Part shown: positions 2,922-10,675 of the stretch, in pieces
How positions within the stretch are numbered: the first letter of the stretch is position 1
How the letters are laid out: each line of letters starts with the position of its first letter
DNA from: Nanobdellota archaeon
GTDB lineage: Archaea; Nanoarchaeota; Nanoarchaeia; Parvarchaeales; Parvarchaeaceae
Length of the DNA: 10,919 nt
Assembly (NCBI GenBank): GCA_021796445.1
Contig: JAKACB010000023.1
Coordinates: forward strand, 1-10,919
Reading direction: 5' to 3'
Notes under the pieces: generated by a model
The model's input: only the letters and a program-made list of their open reading frames with translations
What the model was told of the DNA's origin: nothing
Databases searched by the model: none
Program-made: the position numbers and the translations under genes

Positions 2922-4421
2922 ATGTTACAGCTGGTTTTTTCAGTCATACTGGACACCGCATACTCATGGACAAGGATGTTCATAGCCATGGCTATTTCAA
3001 TGGTAATAGCCTTGTTTACTGGCATAGCTGTGGCAAGGTCCAAGAAATTGAATAGGGTTCTAATGCCTATTGTCGATATATTACAGACACTTCCCATACT
3101 TGCGTTCTTTCCGTTTGCTATATACCTTTTTGTATTTTATTTTCCTGGTTCAGTAGGGATAAATGCTGCAGTTATATTTTTGATAATAACAAGTATGCTT
3201 TGGAACATTATATTTGGTGTTTATCAAGCAGTAATATCGCTGCCTTCCGAGTATTTAGATATGGCGAATATATATGGACTTAATTTTTATCAGCGGCTTA
3301 AAAAAATATTTATACCTGCGTCACTTCCAAGGATGTCTGAGCAGATGAGTTTATCTTGGGCAATTGGGCTATTTTACTTAGTTACAAGTGAGATATTTTC
3401 GGTAGGCACAAAGAACTACGCAGTAAAACATGGGATAGGGGTTGAATTTGTAAAGGCGGCTGCAACTGGTAATAGCTATCTTTATCTTTATTCTATAATA
3501 GTATTCGTTTTATTTGTGATTGCAACCCGCTTATTGTTCTTTGAAAGGTTTGACAGGTTTGCGAATAGGCATTATCTAAAGGACTACAAGAAAAGAAAAA
3601 GAGACAATTTTACATTTAATTATTTCAGAGATAAATGGATAAAACCGGATGAACAAATCAGATATAAACTAACTGTATTTGCCAATTTGGTTTTTTATAC
3701 ATTGCTTGCAGCGCTTTTTGGTTTTTTAATTTACAAAGTGATTCCTTTTGTAAATTTACAATTGTTAAGCAAAATTGTCGGATATGAAGGATATTCTATT
3801 TTGTCGCTGGCCTTTTCATTTCTAAGGGTTTGGGGCGCTTTCCTTGCAATAATTGCAGTTTCAATCCCATTAAGCATATATGTAGTATTCCTTTCAAACA
3901 AGACAAAAAGATATCTTCTTTTATTCCAGATATTCGCTTCAATACCAGCTACTATACTGCTGCCTGCAATAGCTGAACTTGTTTATGGAAACTCTGAATT
4001 GTTGGCGTTTATGATCTACTTTTTAAGCGGTTTGTGGTATGTAATCTTTAGTATAGTGGCAACTACAAAATACCTGCCAGAAAGCATAAATGAAGTAAAA
4101 AAGATTTTTCATCTTAATGGAATAGTTGCATGGAAAAAGATATATCTAAAGGCCATCATGCCTGGAGTTATAACAGGCGCGGTAACCGGAATCGCTGCGG
4201 AGTGGAATGCAAGTATAGTTGCCGAATACTTTTCAGCGGGTAGCAGCAAACTTATAACTTCAGTGTCTATAGGGATAGGAAAGGCATTAAATGTGTCTTT
4301 AGATAATAATAATCTTCTTTTGATGGGTATTCTTCTTGCAAATATGGTGGCAATGATAATCATTATAAACTATTTTGTATGGCGTAGGTTATATAACAGA
4401 GTAAATTCAGTTTATTCTTAA
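2922..4421 (+). CDS. ABC anion-type transporter, fused double permease (COG4986-like)
   Basis: A 499-residue membrane protein made of two binding-protein-dependent permease domains in one chain. Each half has several membrane helices and one EAA coupling loop, where the permease docks on its ATPase. The first loop is at residues 108-136 (SEYLDMANIYGLN, G119) and the second at about 385-415 (ESINEVKKIFHLNG, G400). A charged cytoplasmic linker (about 207-245) joins the halves. The tandem layout resembles the archaeal duplicated permease of anion (nitrate/sulfonate/taurine-like) ABC systems. The ATPase gene follows after 2 nt. A chain with both permease halves would pair with two ATPase copies. 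No substrate-binding protein is encoded in the window, so substrate and even direction are unproven, though the family is an importer family. Confidence 0.9.
   Translation: MLQLVFSVILDTAYSWTRMFIAMAISMVIALFTGIAVARSKKLNRVLMPIVDILQTLPILAFFPFAIYLFVFYFPGSVGINAAVIFLIITSMLWNIIFGVYQAVISLPSEYLDMANIYGLNFYQRLKKIFIPASLPRMSEQMSLSWAIGLFYLVTSEIFSVGTKNYAVKHGIGVEFVKAAATGNSYLYLYSIIVFVLFVIATRLLFFERFDRFANRHYLKDYKKRKRDNFTFNYFRDKWIKPDEQIRYKLTVFANLVFYTLLAALFGFLIYKVIPFVNLQLLSKIVGYEGYSILSLAFSFLRVWGAFLAIIAVSIPLSIYVVFLSNKTKRYLLLFQIFASIPATILLPAIAELVYGNSELLAFMIYFLSGLWYVIFSIVATTKYLPESINEVKKIFHLNGIVAWKKIYLKAIMPGVITGAVTGIAAEWNASIVAEYFSAGSSKLITSVSIGIGKALNVSLDNNNLLLMGILLANMVAMIIIINYFVWRRLYNRVNSVYS
4389..4397 (+). promoter_or_regulatory. 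Possible internal TATA-like box before ABC ATPase
   Basis: TTATATAAC lies inside the last codons of the permease gene, centred about 31 nt before the ATPase ATG. The ATPase has no SD, unlike the coupled cistrons at 7403 and 7927, so a separate leaderless or short-leader transcript is possible. The site is also coding sequence, so chance is a real alternative. Confidence 0.3.
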
Positions 4422-4423
4422 GT

Positions 4424-5170
4424 ATGGCATTCCTAAATGTTGAAAAAATAAATTTCACCTATCCAAAAAGCGGATTGACGGTGTTAAATGGGATATCGTT
4501 TTCAGCAAATGAGTTAGAATTCGTTTCTATCATAGGGCCTTCTGGCTGTGGAAAGAGCACTCTTCTGAGGATAATGGCAGGTCTCATAAAGGCAGATAGT
4601 GGAAGTATAGTATTGGCTGGAAAGAAAATAAATAGCCCTTCAAACAATATCTCATTTGTTTTTCAGGATTTTGCGCTTCTGCCCTGGCTTTCAAACCTTG
4701 AAAACGTGAAGATAGGGCTAGCTTCAAAGCAGATAACAGAAGCTGAAAGAGAAAAAACTGCATTGGAAATGCTTTATAAACTAGAGCTGAAAGGCTTTGA
4801 AGATGCTTACCCGAATCTTTTAAGTGGCGGAATGAAACAGAGGGTAGGGCTTGCGCGGGCTTTGGTATCAAATCCTATCCTGCTTCTAATGGACGAGCCA
4901 TTCAGCTCATTGGATGAGCTTACTGCGAATAGCCTTCGTAAAACCGTTGTTGAGGTCTTGAAAGGCAGGAAAACGCTGCCTAAAGTAATTGTAATGGTTT
5001 CTCACAACATAGAAGAGGCAGTGGAGATGTCAGATAGGATAGTTGTATTGTCAAACAAACCTGCAGTTGTAAAAAAGATACTAAGTATTGATATAAAACG
5101 TCCGAGGGACAGAGGGAGTACTGAATTTAGAAAGAAGGTAAAGGAGATATATTCAATCTTTGCCGAGTGA
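4424..5170 (+). CDS. ABC transporter ATP-binding protein, TauB/SsuB-like
   Basis: A 248-residue nucleotide-binding domain with every ABC motif intact: Walker A GPSGCGKST (38-46), Q-loop Q81 in FVFQDFALLPW, signature LSGGM (133-137), Walker B LLLMDEP with catalytic E158, D-loop SSLD, and switch His H194 in MVSHNIEEAV. The FQ-x-LLPW pattern is typical of the nitrate/sulfonate/taurine ATPases (TauB, SsuB, NrtD). It would power the double permease encoded 2 nt upstream by binding its two EAA loops. The protein ends about 60 residues after the H-loop (FRKKVKEIYSIFAE). It therefore lacks the roughly 120-residue AAA_assoc_C tail common on archaeal relatives, which is encoded separately on the opposite strand next door. 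The gene is convergent with that one, 3 nt apart. Confidence 0.95.
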   Translation: MAFLNVEKINFTYPKSGLTVLNGISFSANELEFVSIIGPSGCGKSTLLRIMAGLIKADSGSIVLAGKKINSPSNNISFVFQDFALLPWLSNLENVKIGLASKQITEAEREKTALEMLYKLELKGFEDAYPNLLSGGMKQRVGLARALVSNPILLLMDEPFSSLDELTANSLRKTVVEVLKGRKTLPKVIVMVSHNIEEAVEMSDRIVVLSNKPAVVKKILSIDIKRPRDRGSTEFRKKVKEIYSIFAE

Positions 5171-5173
5171 ATC

Positions 5174-5656
5174 TTATCTGCTAATTATCTTCCAAATGTC
5201 ATTTTCATGATTGTATGTAAGTATCTCAAGCCTTATCCCTATCACAAGTAGGTCTCTTTTGAATGCTTCTATTCCGGATAGATTATTCCTATATGTTATC
5301 ACGCCTTTTTTTATCAGATCCTGAAATAACTCTGTAGTTGTTATCTTTTTGTTTTTTCTTAGTATTTTTTTTATTTCTAAAAATGGTTCTATTTTCAACA
5401 GATTATTTTTTATTTCTAGGTTTATTTCATGGGCGCTCTTATTTTCAAGCTTTTTACTTAGTTTTATCTCACCCTTGTTTATTTTTATAAATCCAAGCAA
5501 TTTACAGGCCTGAAGTACATTGACAAGGTTATCTACTTGCTCCAATGCCTCATCAGAAAGTTCTTGCAGAGATATTTGTCCGTTATATTCCTTTAGTATA
5601 GAAATTACTCCCTGTATCCGGCCAAGCTTTATGTTTAAAGGAAAAAGTCCTTTCAT
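5174..5656 (-). CDS. Stand-alone AAA_assoc_C-like winged-helix protein
   Basis: A 160-residue soluble protein that resembles the C-terminal AAA-associated domain (PF09821) usually fused behind archaeal TauB/SsuB-type ABC ATPases. The pattern runs: G-R-I-x-G-V-I-x-I-L opening (12-21); QELSDEALEQVDNLVNVLQA; CKLLGFIKINKGEIKLS (about 51-67), a wing after a DNA-binding-like helix; a helical middle (75-100); and the end RDLLVIGIRLEILTYNHEND, where the family has a W-G-R-Y-A-E-L-F-like motif. Helix-turn-helix character suggests regulation of, or binding to, the transporter. It is convergent with the ATPase gene, so it is transcribed independently. ATG 5656 has a TATA-like box 26 nt upstream and no SD. 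An ordinary MarR-like or winged-helix regulator is the alternative. Domain assignment is from recalled pattern, not a search. Confidence 0.7.
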   Translation of the reverse strand: MKGLFPLNIKLGRIQGVISILKEYNGQISLQELSDEALEQVDNLVNVLQACKLLGFIKINKGEIKLSKKLENKSAHEINLEIKNNLLKIEPFLEIKKILRKNKKITTTELFQDLIKKGVITYRNNLSGIEAFKRDLLVIGIRLEILTYNHENDIWKIISR

Positions 5657-5737: not shown

Positions 5738-6679
5738 ATGGTTGCAGAGATGAAAAATTTTAATGGAGATGCACTGGGTATACTTTTTGTTATTCTTATA
5801 CCTGCAGTTATAGGCTATCTGCTTTCTATTGTTAATCTGTATGCAGGTATAGGAATCGGAGTATTATTTTTTATTGTGTTTTTAATTGCTGCAATAAGGA
5901 TAGTCAACCAATGGAATAGAAAAGCTGTTCTTTCGTTTGGAAATTACGTTGGTATACTGGGGCCAGGCGTACACATTTTGATACCATTTGTGCAGACTAC
6001 TCCTGTTACATTGGATTTGAGGGTAATTAATACCATTTTCAAGGCAGAGAAAACGCTTACAAAGGACAATGTTCCTGTAGATGTCGATGCGCTTCTTTTC
6101 TGGAAAGTCCTTAACCCGGAGAATGCGGTTTTGAATGTTCAGATTTACAGGGATTCCGTTCAACTGGCAGCACAGACAGCTTTGAGGGATATAATTGGTA
6201 AAACCGAATTGTCAGAAATGCTGGCCGGCAGAGACGTAATAGGTAAGGATGTAAAGAAATTGATACAGGACCGGGTGTCAGACTGGGGAATAGAAGCAAT
6301 ATCTGTTGAAATAAGGGATGTAAGCATACCTCCTGATTTACAAGATGCAATGGCAAGGGTTGCTGTAGCAGATAGGGAAAAGCAGGCAAGAGTTAAACTG
6401 GCTGAGAGCGAATCACTTGCTGCGGATAAAATTATAGAAGCAAGTTTAAAATATAAAAAAGATTTGTTCGCAATGCAGCTCAGGTCGCTTAATATGATGT
6501 ATGAAATAAGTTTAAGTGGTAAGAATCTTATGATATTTATCCCGACAGACAGCAAAGGATTTAGTATACCTACACCTGTAGGAGTTGAGGGAATAAAAGA
6601 TCTGTTTGAGAAGAGCAATGTAAAGAATCTGCCTGATAAAAACAAGGGAGATAAAGAAAAAACACAGAATGATAGTTGA
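5738..6679 (+). CDS. SPFH/band 7 (stomatin-like) membrane protein
   Basis: A 313-residue protein. Two hydrophobic segments lie at the N-terminus (about 13-30 and 36-55). The SPFH domain follows, with recognisable landmarks: FGNYVGILGPGVHILIPF (67-84), the strand around NVPVDVDALLFWKV, and the helix ALRDIIGKTELSEMLAGRD (148-166). Then comes EIRDVSIPPDLQDAMARVAVADREKQAR, the classic stomatin stretch leading into a coiled coil (about 200-230). The last 30 residues are charged and low-complexity. Stomatins form membrane-bound oligomeric rings that organise lipids and control membrane proteases or channels. Archaeal homologues usually pair with an NfeD/STOPP gene, and none is seen here. It is followed by the KaiC operon after 68 nt. 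Family certain, partner unknown. Confidence 0.93.
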   Translation: MVAEMKNFNGDALGILFVILIPAVIGYLLSIVNLYAGIGIGVLFFIVFLIAAIRIVNQWNRKAVLSFGNYVGILGPGVHILIPFVQTTPVTLDLRVINTIFKAEKTLTKDNVPVDVDALLFWKVLNPENAVLNVQIYRDSVQLAAQTALRDIIGKTELSEMLAGRDVIGKDVKKLIQDRVSDWGIEAISVEIRDVSIPPDLQDAMARVAVADREKQARVKLAESESLAADKIIEASLKYKKDLFAMQLRSLNMMYEISLSGKNLMIFIPTDSKGFSIPTPVGVEGIKDLFEKSNVKNLPDKNKGDKEKTQNDS

Positions 6680-6687: not shown

Positions 6688-6707
6688 TAAAATGATAAAC
6701 CTAAAAG

Positions 6708-6718
6708 TTTATTAAATA
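6708..6718 (+). promoter_or_regulatory. TATA-like box for KaiC-V4R-ANL operon
   Basis: TTTATTAAATA, preceded by an A-rich BRE-like CTAAAAG, is centred about 35 nt before the ATG at 6748, predicting a leader of about 8-10 nt. A second AT element (6727-6737) is too close to the start to serve. No good SD is seen before 6748. Confidence 0.45.
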
Positions 6719-6747
6719 AGCCTTTCTATACTATATGTAAAAGTAAT

Positions 6748-7413
6748 ATGGTAGGACTAAAAAGGATACCTAGCGGGATACATGGTCTCGATGAAAAGAT
6801 AGGTGGCGGATTTGAAGCAGGGTCTGTTATAAGTCTTCTAGGCGGACCTGGAGCAGGCAAGTCACTTCTTGGAATGTCATTTTTATATGAAGGTTTAAAA
6901 AATGGTGAAACCTGTTTAATGGTTTCTTTTGAAGAAAGTGTAGACGATTTAATTTCAGACATGGAGGCTATTGGATTTAAAGACCTAAAAGACTTCATTA
7001 GTAGAAAAAAGCTCATATTATTATTTAACTCCCCGGTGAATTTCGAATATCTTGGAATACTAGATATAATACGGGAAAATAATGTTTCTAGAGCCGTAAT
7101 AGATTCATTGTCTGCAATCTCCATGTATATGGATGATAAGTCAAAATTTCGTAAATTTATGTTGGATTTAGTAACAGAATTAAAGGGATTAAAGGTTACG
7201 ACTATAGCTACTGATGAACAGCCACAGGTTTCGGATAATGATACTCTTTATTTCAGTGGGGAGTACCTCTCTGACGCAGTGATAAAGCTTTTCTACACTG
7301 GTTTGGGTGGTGATTTTGATAGAAGTATGCAGATAGTAAAAATGAGAAGGACAAATAATGACAGGTCAATGCTCCCTATGAGAATAGACCAGGGAGGCAT
7401 ATATGTCAAGTGA
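6748..7413 (+). CDS. KaiC/RecA-like single-domain ATPase
   Basis: A 221-residue protein with one KaiC domain. It opens with the family hallmark SGIHGLDEKIGGGFEAGSV (9-27). Then come Walker A GGPGAGKS (32-39), the catalytic acidic pair E62/E63 in MVSFEES, and Walker B AVIDS (116-120) followed by LSAI. The C-terminal half (LKVTTIATDE, FSGEYLSDAVIKLFYT, RSMQIVKMRRTNND) matches the KaiC core that forms hexamer contacts. Single-domain archaeal KaiC homologues are ATP-driven signalling modules, often next to sensor domains. They are not clock proteins, and no KaiA or KaiB is here. It is the first gene of a three-gene operon and overlaps the V4R gene by 11 nt. Its last codons carry that gene's strong Shine-Dalgarno sequence. 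ATPase fold very sure, biological role inferred. Confidence 0.9.
   Translation: MVGLKRIPSGIHGLDEKIGGGFEAGSVISLLGGPGAGKSLLGMSFLYEGLKNGETCLMVSFEESVDDLISDMEAIGFKDLKDFISRKKLILLFNSPVNFEYLGILDIIRENNVSRAVIDSLSAISMYMDDKSKFRKFMLDLVTELKGLKVTTIATDEQPQVSDNDTLYFSGEYLSDAVIKLFYTGLGGDFDRSMQIVKMRRTNNDRSMLPMRIDQGGIYVK
7393..7397 (+). promoter_or_regulatory. Shine-Dalgarno for V4R gene inside KaiC ORF
   Basis: GGAGG (within AGGGAGG, 7391-7397) lies 5 nt before the ATG at 7403, inside the KaiC reading frame. It decides the V4R start and indicates translational coupling. It contrasts with the SD-less operon-leading genes. Confidence 0.8.
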
Positions 7414-7930
7414 TATTACCCCCAATAATTTCTTAAATGAGATGCTTTTGACTAAAAATATAAGGTTTGAGAATAATAGGCTGCTATTAATGAATAGGCC
7501 CGGTGTGCTTATAAACATGAGTATATTTGCATCTTTAGTTGGCAAGCTTGCAAAATATGATGAAACTGAGGCATACAATGCCGGTTCAATTAGTATAAGT
7601 GGCATAGTAAGCGATTATAAAAATAGATTTGATAATGATACCAATAAAATCCTTGATTTGGTATCAAATGTTGTTGCGTCTTCGGGCTTAGGAAAATTAG
7701 TTTTTGATTTTGATAAAGATAAAATTGTAACAACAATTAATCCTTCTCCCTTGGCAGAAGCATACTTACAGATATTTGGTAAAACAGAAAAACCAGTGTG
7801 CTTTTTCTCAGCAGGCAGTTTAAATTCAATTTTTGCAGGTTTACTAGATAAAAAATATTCAACTAAAGAGATATACTGCAAAGCAAAGGGAGACTTGGAA
7901 TGTAAATTTGTCTCTGAGGTTTTATTATGA
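7403..7930 (+). CDS. V4R-domain (4-vinyl reductase) small-molecule sensor protein
   Basis: A 175-residue soluble protein whose C-terminal third (about 110-175) is a V4R domain: an aliphatic helix (PLAEAYLQIF), then CFFSAGSLNSIFAGLL, and the closing EIYCKAKGDLECKF. V4R domains bind small hydrophobic ligands, as in BchJ and the aromatic-sensing regulators DmpR, XylR and MopR. From memory, the zinc site in MopR is Cys-x22-Glu-x2-Cys-x7-Cys; here C133, E156, C159 and C167 have exactly that spacing. The first 110 residues resemble the N-terminal part of such sensor domains (FENNRLLLMNRPGVLINMS), but I recognise no DNA-binding domain. It overlaps KaiC by 11 nt and the ANL gene by 4 nt, so the three products are probably made together. 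Likely a ligand-sensing partner of the KaiC ATPase; the ligand is unknown. Confidence 0.83.
   Translation: MSSDITPNNFLNEMLLTKNIRFENNRLLLMNRPGVLINMSIFASLVGKLAKYDETEAYNAGSISISGIVSDYKNRFDNDTNKILDLVSNVVASSGLGKLVFDFDKDKIVTTINPSPLAEAYLQIFGKTEKPVCFFSAGSLNSIFAGLLDKKYSTKEIYCKAKGDLECKFVSEVLL
7916..7920 (+). promoter_or_regulatory. Shine-Dalgarno for PaaK-like gene inside V4R ORF
   Basis: GAGGT lies 6 nt before the ATG at 7927, within the last V4R codons. With the ATGA stop/start overlap it supports coupled translation and fixes this start. Confidence 0.75.
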
Positions 7931-9282
7931 CAGCAAAGCCTAACGTTAAATCCGTTTTTAAATACGCATTAAATAATATAGAATTTTATAAGTCAGGTTC
8001 CTATGAACACTTGAGAAATTTGAATTCAAAGAATTTAGAAGATGTAATTAAAGACATTCCTATAATTTCAGGAGAGGTTTTCATGAATAACTTTTACAAA
8101 TTTATACCTGATATACGTACGAGGGTATCTTTATTTCAAACTTCCGGTTCGACTGGTAAACCTAAAGTTATACCTGTAACCTATGATGATATGGAAATTT
8201 TTGGACATACTTTTGTAAATGTGTATAAGGAGTTACTTGGCGAAATACCCTATATAACTATAAATATCGCTCCACCTAGGCCCGCCATAAGCGGAATAAC
8301 TATGTCGTCTATATCAGAGGCTGGAAAATCCATAGAATTAAATCCTGGACCAGGTCAAACACTTCTAGATATTTTGAAAAAAGGCAATGATATAATAGAT
8401 TCACACCCAAACATGAATAAAAAGATATTTATATCGGGTTTGCCGTCCATTTTGTTCAGAGAGATATACAATTTAGATGAAAAATCCCGAGAAGAACTAA
8501 ATTATCTAGTGCGCAAAAATGAAATATATATCGCAGTCGGTGGGGAGCCTCTAAATCTTGAGAGGAGTAAGCTGCTTTATTCTCTTATGCCAGTAAGAGG
8601 CATACTAAATTTCCTTGCTTCGACCGAGAGAATTTGTGGTAGCAAATTTTATTCGGAGGAAATGTTAAATAGCGAAGATGCACCGGACACTTCCGTATTT
8701 AAACTTTCTAGGTATAACAATGAATTTGGTATTTATTCTGATAGTAAGGTTTATTACCCTTCTGATAATAAACTTAAGGGGCTTGAAGGCGAATTGCTTT
8801 TGACAAGCAAGGGGTTAAAGGGACAGGATCATGTGCCTTTAATAAATTATGATACAAAGGAAAAAGTTAGGTTTATAGGCCTAGATAAGGATTATATGTA
8901 TTTAGAATTCCTTGGCAGGACAAACAAGCTTGTTAACTTTAGCGTATCAAAATTGGATGATATAATAATAGATGATGTTCTTGCTTTTGTATCAAGGAAA
9001 TTAAATTTGGGAGAGGGCTACTCTGAGATAACTAGAGAAAACGGCTTAGATAAGATGACTTTTTACTTTTATAAAAATGAATTTAAAGGCAGTAAAGAAG
9101 AAGTAGTCAACCTAATCTTAGATAAACTATCCAAAGAGGAAATGGAACTAAAGTATGTTATAGACCAAAAACTAGCTTTATTGGATGCGGAGTTAGTTGC
9201 TAAAGACAGAATTCCTTTTTACGATCCAACGAAAATTAAAAGCCCTAAAATTATAGATAGAAGGGGAATAGAACACTATTAA
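7927..9282 (+). CDS. PaaK/LuxE-like adenylate-forming enzyme (ANL superfamily)
   Basis: A 451-residue ANL enzyme of the phenylacetate-CoA ligase/LuxE type. Motifs in order: P-loop QTSGSTGKPK (71-80), AVGGEPLN (203-210) where PaaK has its G-G-E-P strand, LASTER (230-235) for the aromatic/STE adenine motif, INYDT (306-310) with the ribose-binding Asp D309, and FLGRTNK hinge region (328-334). A C-terminal subdomain ends in RIPFYDPTKIKSPKIIDRRG. That end resembles the PaaK tail I-P-R-S-E-G-K-A-K-R-V-x-D-x-R and supplies a candidate catalytic lysine (K436). Family members activate an acid with ATP to an acyl-AMP and pass it to CoA or a protein thiol. The acid is unknown; coupling to a V4R sensor hints at an aromatic or hydrophobic one. 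It is the last gene of the operon, and its TAA overlaps the stop of the convergent ANL gene. Confidence 0.82.
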   Translation: MTAKPNVKSVFKYALNNIEFYKSGSYEHLRNLNSKNLEDVIKDIPIISGEVFMNNFYKFIPDIRTRVSLFQTSGSTGKPKVIPVTYDDMEIFGHTFVNVYKELLGEIPYITINIAPPRPAISGITMSSISEAGKSIELNPGPGQTLLDILKKGNDIIDSHPNMNKKIFISGLPSILFREIYNLDEKSREELNYLVRKNEIYIAVGGEPLNLERSKLLYSLMPVRGILNFLASTERICGSKFYSEEMLNSEDAPDTSVFKLSRYNNEFGIYSDSKVYYPSDNKLKGLEGELLLTSKGLKGQDHVPLINYDTKEKVRFIGLDKDYMYLEFLGRTNKLVNFSVSKLDDIIIDDVLAFVSRKLNLGEGYSEITRENGLDKMTFYFYKNEFKGSKEEVVNLILDKLSKEEMELKYVIDQKLALLDAELVAKDRIPFYDPTKIKSPKIIDRRGIEHY

Positions 9283-10376
9283 TTTAAAGATCTTGAAAGA
9301 TTTGAAATCCCGTCTATCTCTTCAAATGCCTTTGTTGCTTTTTTTACGCTTGTTTTTACTGCGTAGTCTTCATCGTTTATTAGTAACAGCTCAGGTTCAG
9401 CGACTATCATCTTGGTAGGCGCTTTTTTCCCATATGCAGGAGTTTTTCCTTGATAATTCATGTAAATGTATGTAACTGGAAATGACGGGAAATACACTAT
9501 GTCGCTACTTGTAAAACCTATTGAAGATTTTCCAGCATAGTGACCATACATGGGTATAAGTTTTTTACCGAGTTCCTTCTCCGTTTTTGTCAACATATCA
9601 GTATTTATCTGTGTGCCCGATACTTTTATTAGGTCTGTGCCGTAAAATAATTCTTTTGGCATCATAGAAATCATTTCCATTGCAGCCGTTGCTATCCCAA
9701 TATTACCCTGGTTTAATATATAGGTTTCCTTTTCCATCACAGGCCTCATTTTATTCATCATCTCCTGCGGGCCTAAAAGTTTTAATCCCTTTGTTTCGAA
9801 TTCATTTCCTATATATTCCATCCCAAGAAGCTCTGCAAGTTTCTTGTGCTCTTCTTGATAAGCGCCAACCGGTCCAGCAGCCAATAATTTCTTATTTTTT
9901 AGTTCTTTTACAGGATACTGTGCCTTTATCCCCGTGTATTCATTTACTGCAGAAATAGATAAAGATTGAGGGGTGTGGTAAACAGTCTTTGCCGGCCCAG
10001 TAGTGCCCGATGAGGAACTTTTGAACATGTCATTAAGCTTGAAATTCTTAGGCATGTAATAATCCTTGTAACCATTGTCCTTTTTTAGAAATTCAGAATC
10101 AGAATTTCCTAAAAGCGAAACCAATTCATTTAAACTTGTAGCATTATCTATCTTTTCAGGGGTTATTCCTTTTATGTCTGCTTTCATTATCCAGTAAAGT
10201 GAGCCAGTATTCTCATCTGTATGGTATTTTGCAACTTTTTTCAGCCAATACAACATCCCCTCTTCACTATTCTTGTAAGATAATGCTTTATTGAATGGCC
10301 CTTTAAAGTTATTCCATTCCCCTTCAAAGAAATCCTTCTTGGTGTATTTTTTCAAATTCTTTATATAATTATTCAT
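9279..10376 (-). CDS. Divergent ANL-superfamily protein without C-terminal subdomain
   Basis: A 365-residue protein with a clear adenylate-forming P-loop, KSSSSGTTGPAK (119-130), after a helical N-terminal region. Further on, VSGTQINTD (252-260) and IPMYGHYAGKSS (274-285) sit where ANL enzymes have the G-x-E-P and Y-G-x-T-E motifs, but the Glu of the latter is missing. The chain ends about 30 residues after INDEDYAVKT (333-342), the probable ribose-binding region. The C-terminal subdomain and its catalytic lysine are therefore absent. Substrate unknown; it may adenylate only, work with a partner, or bind a ligand without catalysis. I start at ATG 10376 and not the upstream TTG (10457): the extra 27 codons cover a TATA-like box 27 nt before this ATG and read as non-conserved hydrophobic sequence. 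It converges on the PaaK-like gene with stops sharing TTAA. Confidence 0.75.
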   Translation of the reverse strand: MNNYIKNLKKYTKKDFFEGEWNNFKGPFNKALSYKNSEEGMLYWLKKVAKYHTDENTGSLYWIMKADIKGITPEKIDNATSLNELVSLLGNSDSEFLKKDNGYKDYYMPKNFKLNDMFKSSSSGTTGPAKTVYHTPQSLSISAVNEYTGIKAQYPVKELKNKKLLAAGPVGAYQEEHKKLAELLGMEYIGNEFETKGLKLLGPQEMMNKMRPVMEKETYILNQGNIGIATAAMEMISMMPKELFYGTDLIKVSGTQINTDMLTKTEKELGKKLIPMYGHYAGKSSIGFTSSDIVYFPSFPVTYIYMNYQGKTPAYGKKAPTKMIVAEPELLLINDEDYAVKTSVKKATKAFEEIDGISNLSRSLN

Positions 10377-10456: not shown

Positions 10457-10675
10457 ATGATAATCGAAGAATTAAGCAGTAGAAAGAAAAAAATATTCTT
10501 TTCTGTCGTCATACTTTACTTTTTAGTTGGCTTTGTCCTTATATTAGTTTTTTTAACAAAGTACTTTGGTCCTAACGGAGCAAGCCTGATAGGGATAGTA
10601 TATTTGGGAGTTGGATGGCTTGTTTTATACCGCTGGAAAGGCTTATTTAAGATAATGAAAATAAAATACAAGTAA
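10457..10675 (+). CDS. Small two-helix membrane protein of unknown function
   Basis: A 72-residue protein. A short acidic/basic head (EELSSRKKK) is followed by two hydrophobic segments (about 13-33 and 41-58) joined by a short turn (KYFGPNGAS), then a basic tail (KGLFKIMKIKYK). The positive residues on both ends suggest a hairpin with both termini in the cytoplasm. The TATA-like box at -26 and good AT-rich archaeal codon use support a real gene. I recognise no family. It is divergent from the truncated ANL gene across 80 nt, with no other partner visible. Could be a membrane-associated helper or regulatory miniprotein; no function is claimed. Confidence 0.6.
   Translation: MIIEELSSRKKKIFFSVVILYFLVGFVLILVFLTKYFGPNGASLIGIVYLGVGWLVLYRWKGLFKIMKIKYK

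Follow-up and report, generated by a model that had tools for sequence, protein, structure and literature searches.

A KaiC-family ATPase, a V4R protein and adenylating enzymes in one locus of a Parvarchaeaceae archaeon: a possible signalling module in which receptor and enzyme are replaced together

What might a KaiC-family ATPase, a V4R protein and a PaaK-like enzyme have to do with one another when their genes overlap? The question is raised by a stretch of 10,919 nucleotides from a Nanobdellota archaeon of the family Parvarchaeaceae (contig JAKACB010000023.1 of assembly GCA_021796445.1), which was analysed at its full length and is called the window here. An initial annotation, made from the sequence alone, had described an operon of three plus-strand genes with overlaps of 11 nt (KaiC/V4R) and 4 nt (V4R/LIG), and the open reading frame (ORF) list of the window gives the same coordinates and overlaps. 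The three genes are thus real, although a fourth, convergent gene (ANL2) had been overlooked. The genes are:

6748-7413, plus strand: KaiC, a single-domain KaiC-family ATPase and proposed signal transducer, 221 aa (PF06745)
7403-7930, plus strand: V4R, a proposed receptor for a small molecule, in which four putative metal ligands are conserved, 175 aa (PF02830)
7927-9282, plus strand: LIG, a divergent PaaK-fold adenylating enzyme with C-terminal domain, 451 aa (Foldseek and invariant motifs)
9279-10376, minus strand: ANL2, convergent with LIG, an EhpF-like adenylating enzyme that lacks a C-terminal domain (Foldseek match to EhpF)

We suggest, with belief and doubt about equally balanced, that these genes form a signalling module, in which the neighbouring enzyme would make or activate a small hydrophobic molecule, and V4R would sense that molecule and relay this to KaiC. 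We favour such an account, with the enzyme supplying the ligand, as the simplest one, because two unrelated classes of acyl- or aryl-handling enzymes recur at KaiC-V4R pairs, and because V4R goes with the enzyme wherever replacement is traceable.

The pairing of KaiC with V4R extends beyond the window's order. In a sample of 279 genomes of the phylum, V4R profile matches were present in 34, of which 23 lie outside that order, and in these 23 genomes KaiC was found within 2 kb of 24 of the 30 V4R places (0.38 expected) and within 500 bp of 20 (0.16 expected), the expectations being computed from KaiC numbers and genome sizes. A second sample, of 287 genomes from the order of G130 (loci and genomes carry our own L and G labels), had V4R matches in 33, many of them shared with the first. 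In the enlarged outside set, made up of 41 of 43 V4R loci (G315 and G359 were left out), KaiC lies within 2 kb in 31 and within 500 bp in 26. The linkage persists there with altered gene order, strand and partners, other V4R neighbours being FIST, CBS, response regulator and radical SAM proteins. The earlier proposal that the sensor acts on its ATPase in trans fits this linkage (31/41), while the comparison with AAA+ ATPases on which it drew stays an analogy. FIST-like genes stand near V4R in L092, L097 and L099, confirmed by Pfam in L097 and recognised by eye in the others.

Two kinds of enzyme are found beside V4R in these outside loci. FeeM/GNAT acyltransferases belong to the N-acyl amino acid synthase family and are related to autoinducer synthases; a custom profile picks up such a protein at 15 of the 41 loci, no more than 2.5 kb away from V4R. 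Ten of the 15 also score above the Pfam FeeM cut-off (best 1.8e-38 in L131 and 4.8e-31 in L133), those of L101, L107 and L132 miss it, either narrowly or by a wide margin, and those of L119 and L141 match other GNAT models only; L106 and L132 also match Autoind_synth just below its cut-off. The gene is convergent with V4R in 14 of the 15 (the exception is L134), with a stop-to-stop overlap in nine, and in L107, L108, L118, L119, L122 and L141 the same protein contains a methyltransferase domain. A response-regulator protein in L101 has a partial FeeM match, below the cut-off. When FeeM is taken as the starting point, seven of eight matches in the phylum sample lie within about 2 kb of V4R, and five of five among those above the cut-off, in a search that missed L108 (G066) and L120 (G060), both above the cut-off by hmmscan, and that may also miss unlinked ones. 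The eight FeeM genomes all lie outside the window's order. Of the 16 FeeM matches in the second order, 11 are V4R-linked; among the five unlinked ones, L127 and L128 have KaiC and a protein of about 100 aa (see below) 2-3 kb away, L129 lies 0.2 kb from a contig end, and L126 and L130 have neither KaiC nor the ~100-aa protein nearby.

The other enzyme, PaaK-like, stands beside V4R in four of the 41 outside loci, scoring above the Pfam AMP-binding cut-off in L090, L091 and L137 and below it in L136. KaiC is close in L091 and L136 and 3.3 kb off in L137, and the contig of L090 ends just past V4R. L090 also has another ORF, convergent, which contains a segment resembling a P-loop and scores just short of the AMP-binding cut-off (27.4 vs 29.9 bits), an arrangement as in the window.

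Within the window's own order, sampled by 32 genomes (the order of the LIG relative G001), LIG is present in 13; V4R matches of at least 217 bits occur only in these 13, and KaiC and V4R are clustered with LIG in every one of them, so that the arrangement is not due to chance. The gene order is KaiC-V4R-LIG in 12 and V4R-LIG-KaiC in L037. All 32 genomes have KaiC-family matches, therefore KaiC alone says little. The trio is kept beyond this genome, as the initial reading needed, in 13 of 13 LIG genomes of the order, with V4R and a PaaK-like enzyme together in the four further loci just described. Conserved neighbours are an SPFH protein (upstream of KaiC in eight of the 13 loci), MFS, ANL2 and, in some loci, an ABC transporter. 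Nineteen LIG relatives were found in the protein database, and all four that carry an organism name are Parvarchaeota or Parvarchaeum; in a viral collection 135 stretches matched a pattern and none was a relative. Weak LIG matches elsewhere in the phylum were seen in 9 of 14 genomes: V4R adjoins the match in G074 and G188, and in five of the seven other loci (L112-L116) no V4R or KaiC was present among the surrounding genes, L110 and L111 not being covered.

The second line of evidence comes from comparing related loci, for which two further features are needed:

7490-9115, strand not applicable: mosaic block over most of V4R and LIG (identity bins of the window vs G251, locus L032)
5738-6679, plus strand: SPFH/Band-7 membrane protein, the conserved upstream neighbour (PF01145, 2.3e-39)

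On two occasions V4R and LIG were exchanged jointly, while the flanks (KaiC, SPFH, ANL2) remained constant. Compared with L032, the window is 98-100% identical in 250-base bins outside positions ~7490-9115 and 73-95% identical in 60-base bins within them; per gene, identity is 84% for V4R and 88% for LIG, and 100% for KaiC, 100% for SPFH and 99% for ANL2. Because many of the differences sit at third positions (43 of 72 in V4R, 116 of 176 in LIG), the block points to an older divergent segment having been brought in, rather than to fast protein change. Both alleles have their own protein-database clusters (P0001 and P0020 like the window; P0022, with 18 contigs, like L032), which makes a one-off assembly chimera less likely. 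In the second case L035 and L038 were compared with the window, KaiC being 83 and 86% and SPFH 89 and 94% identical, against 46 and 48% for V4R and 43 and 39% for LIG (which is incomplete in L038). Across eight taxa, pairwise identity in V4R tracks that in LIG with a correlation of 0.98; for either of the two against any other gene the correlation is 0.37-0.62, and for KaiC, ANL2, SPFH and MFS among themselves it is 0.68-0.92. In tree tests of the backbone clade, which covered LIG, V4R, KaiC and ANL2 (SPFH and MFS were not included), LIG rejects the clade (approximately unbiased (AU) test, p 0.005), the KaiC tree is compatible with it (p 0.45) and the ANL2 tree recovers it with support 100/99. 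We read these comparisons as a putative receptor-enzyme pair that has been swapped as a unit against a constant transducer.

How far do the proteins themselves suit these roles? LIG has no Pfam match above cut-off (GH3 4.9e-4, AMP-binding 4.3e-3). Naming it by profile was given up, as its Pfam and NCBIfam matches all fall below cut-off and a single-sequence search of the PDB returned one chance match. Its AlphaFold2 model (predicted local distance difference test (pLDDT) 84.8, predicted template modelling score (pTM) 0.80) matches BT_0428 (E 4.4e-20) and PaaK2 (1.1e-17) in Foldseek, and the P-loop S73-K80, E234, R331 and K438, which have adenylation-motif roles as in ANL enzymes, are invariant in 19 aligned sequences; the A7 Asp of ANL enzymes is Glu in the window's LIG. 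As modelled, LIG has the PaaK-type two-domain ANL fold together with the adenylation motifs, its sequence profiles lying only below cut-off, and the PaaK-like ligase that had been proposed initially is in this sense borne out by predicted structure.

ANL2 has no Pfam match either. It overlaps LIG stop to stop by 4 nt, and its ORF is open up to 10457 (TTG), with relatives starting at the ATG at 10376. The model (365 aa, pLDDT 90.4) finds EhpF (3hgu) as best Foldseek match (E 3.1e-16; the profile match has E 0.0018), so that ANL2 is, on its predicted structure, an EhpF-like protein with an ANL N-domain fold and without C-terminal domain. By its title, the EhpF structure paper reportedly concerns D-alanylgriseoluteic acid biosynthesis and presents EhpF as an ANL adenylating enzyme of an atypical kind. 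LIG and ANL2 resemble PaaK and EhpF in fold and in the adenylation P-loop, and differ from them in sequence (~15% identity in structure alignments) and in being linked to KaiC-V4R. In seven of the order's 13 LIG genomes (L028-L033, L035) ANL2 is convergent with LIG, and in two (L034, L036) it leads an ANL2-KaiC-V4R-LIG operon that has all its genes on one strand. The contig of L040 breaks off a short way 5' of KaiC, where the sequence by eye resembles the ANL2 C-terminus, and the ANL2 profile had no match in its genome (G211), in G288 or in G296, whose L038 contig ends within LIG. In G122 ANL2 is at the end of a different contig, and in G299 it is at a contig end, with no LIG on that contig. 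Two ANL2 relatives in the protein database, P0053 and P0059, stand in records that carry the names Thermoprotei and Sulfolobus sp. E5-1-F.

KaiC is a member of its family both by profile (PF06745, E 6.6e-47, above the Pfam cut-off) and by intact motifs: G32-K38, E62, E63 and D119, which correspond to Walker A, the paired catalytic Glu and the Walker B Asp, are invariant in 13 aligned orthologues. A clock KaiC was ruled out, since the protein has one domain rather than two in tandem and scores 75 bits with circ_KaiC (NCBIfam), for which the cut-off is 546. The 7403-7930 protein, which had been taken for V4R without database searches, does score above the curated cut-off of PF02830 (E 2e-11, 44.2 bits vs 31), and a profile search relates it to MopR (6e-8) and MJ1460 (2e-7). 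Its C133/E156/C159/C167 align with the same spacing to MopR C155/E178/C181/C189, residues that bind zinc in MopR. These four residues (CECC) are found in 16 of 16 close V4R relatives, and outside the order 16 CECC and 22 DECC were counted among 47 V4R proteins; the V4R of the window thus has the residues of a MopR-like, putative metal site. Hydrophobic ligands, and signalling either in cis or in trans, have been proposed for V4R domains (PMC2253512). A 344-aa protein with two V4R-like stretches is encoded in L003 (1144-2178), where KaiC is not adjacent in the 3.1 kb viewed, and similar weak V4R matches occur in ~345-394-aa frames in many genomes of the window's order; these weak tandem proteins were left out of the linkage counts, and the surroundings of the L003 one only were viewed.

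Taken together, the module could work as follows. V4R would sit in the cytoplasm and detect a small hydrophobic molecule of carboxylic or acyl type, which LIG, probably with ANL2, would make or activate. V4R, either bound or empty, would act on the single-domain KaiC, whose ATPase would then switch some target further downstream. Elsewhere in the phylum, in another order, a FeeM/GNAT-type acyltransferase often takes the place of the enzyme, in some cases as a fusion with a methyltransferase. The initial annotation, which is partly supported and is extended here, had also suggested an enzyme that makes or uses the ligand, and the joint replacement of V4R and LIG and the FeeM-type enzymes in the same place elsewhere argue for it indirectly. 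The data show the gene linkage, the folds, the active-site and metal-site motifs and the joint replacement; we infer the ligand relation, the V4R-KaiC contact, the use of ATP and the output.

In DmpR, XylR and MopR a V4R sensor, an AAA+ ATPase and a DNA-binding domain form one chain. The window's V4R is like these in its MopR four-residue spacing and in being paired with an ATPase, and unlike them in that V4R and KaiC are separate chains and the ATPase is KaiC/RecA-type, not AAA+. No DNA-binding domain was found in V4R or KaiC by Pfam and NCBIfam scans. Membership of the XylR/DmpR/MopR group was rejected, as the 175-aa protein has V4R only and KaiC is a separate gene, although the module may work in a similar way to these regulators. 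LuxI-type synthase/receptor pairs and the N-acyl amino acid synthase FeeM offer a further comparison: in the outside loci, as there, a FeeM/GNAT acyltransferase lies beside a putative hydrophobic-ligand receptor. Unlike in LuxI/LuxR, the receptor would be V4R with KaiC, not LuxR, and the window's enzymes are adenylating ones. As regards quorum sensing, the observation is a gene linkage between enzyme and putative receptor. KaiC-like ATPases have reportedly been proposed as archaeal signalling hubs, and the module fits that proposal. Compared with that proposal (Makarova 2017), the likeness is an archaeal single-domain KaiC with intact motifs beside an input domain, and the difference is that the input here would be a separate V4R protein with an adjacent enzyme. 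A literature search, which did not cover that main KaiC survey (Makarova 2017), returned no account of a module that joins KaiC, V4R and enzymes of these kinds.

Several results weigh against our account. KaiC is not within 2 kb in 10 of the 41 outside loci, and since these share descent the counts overstate independence, 41 loci not being 41 independent events. Neither a FeeM/GNAT-like nor a PaaK-like enzyme lies within 2.5 kb of V4R in 22 of the 41, and only four of the eight FeeM matches of the second order that are new to the first sample are V4R-linked. As for the replacements, V4R does not reject the backbone clade (p 0.07), tests of the window+L032 clade are not significant (V4R p 0.14, LIG p 0.105), and linkage alone could make adjacent genes be replaced together. 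One may go further and regard the locus as mere neighbourhood, with a common promoter and separate pathways, as the near-fixed gene order within the window's order might suggest; the linkage outside the order is above chance despite changed order, strand and partners, and we give this possibility very little credence.

One may also consider that the molecule is food. LIG would then activate an aromatic or fatty acid from outside so that it can be broken down, V4R would sense the substrate, as XylR, DmpR and MopR do, and KaiC would adjust metabolism. While the PaaK fold of LIG and the metal-site spacing shared with the phenol sensor MopR would suit such catabolic control, the conserved SPFH, MFS, ANL2 and occasional ABC transporter neighbours add no catabolic genes, and the FeeM-type enzymes occupying the same place elsewhere are synthetic, which makes it rather unlikely in our view. 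It is improbable, too, that the V4R cysteines sense oxidation like archaeal MsvR and control KaiC, LIG being a separate stress-linked enzyme, perhaps F390-synthetase-like: matches of NCBIfam MsvR to V4R (5.8e-9, at 36 vs 220 bits far under cut-off) and of F390 synthetase to LIG (0.0038, under cut-off) lean that way, but the first metal-site position is Asp in 22 of the 47 V4R proteins outside the order, and joint replacement of V4R and LIG would be unexpected. Finally, LIG and ANL2 might act like LuxE, adenylating an acid and then loading it onto a protein, with V4R or KaiC as the acceptor. ANL2 lacks a C-terminal domain and the LIG-like enzyme of L091 passes the Pfam LuxE cut-off (26.5 vs 24.9 bits), both in keeping with such tagging, yet no conserved acceptor was found (no search aimed at one was made), LIG retains its C-terminal domain with K438, and we hold little hope for this explanation.

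The module reading, in which the enzyme supplies what V4R senses, can be taken a step further, to a proposal that is possible though decidedly doubtful: a DPANN-type chemical signalling with an interchangeable synthase (FeeM/LuxI-like or PaaK/EhpF-like), a small lipid-like signal, V4R as receptor and KaiC as ATP-driven transducer, in which receptor-enzyme pairs would diversify and be exchanged like allelic signal-receptor pairs, with KaiC constant. The inputs of archaeal KaiC-like ATPases are largely unknown, and the conserved KaiC-V4R-enzyme linkage points at once to a proposed receptor, to a transducer and to a candidate chemistry of the ligand, so that for one archaeal KaiC the input can be tested directly. 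Should the molecule be self-made, this would mean chemical signalling in very small archaea, of a group presumed to live in contact with other cells.

Regarding transcription, one element was recognised by eye:

6706-6720, plus strand: TATA-like promoter element

This element, TTTATTAAATA, stands about 30-40 nt 5' of the KaiC ATG in seven of 14 loci including the window, and variants of it are present in at least two further loci of the 14 (all by eye). Given this position of a TATA-like element, the operon transcript probably starts at KaiC and is leaderless. By eye, no Shine-Dalgarno (SD)-like site was seen upstream of the KaiC ATG, and the internal SD sites noted initially were found again before the other two genes (GGGAGG just 5' of the V4R ATG, GAGG 5' of the LIG ATG).

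In many outside loci KaiC is preceded by a protein of about 100 aa, which lies within 2.5 kb of V4R in 10 of the 41; the one tested, from L107, had no Pfam match. This conserved protein is a possible KaiC partner. KaiC-adjacent examples, from KaiC-V4R-FeeM loci, are:

L104, 5427-5729
L105, 9835-10164
L107, 9474-9770
L108, 7675-7977
L118, 3642-3944
L122, 2348-2653

Two other parts of the window may be mentioned. Positions 2922-5656 hold a two-domain ABC permease (499 aa), an ATPase and a separate convergent AAA_assoc_C protein (5174-5656), a block that is also present in L029, L031, L032, L033 and L038 and is missing between the same neighbours in L028, L030 and L035. At 10457-10675 a 72-aa hydrophobic protein is encoded divergently from ANL2, and its relatives are likewise placed in several loci.

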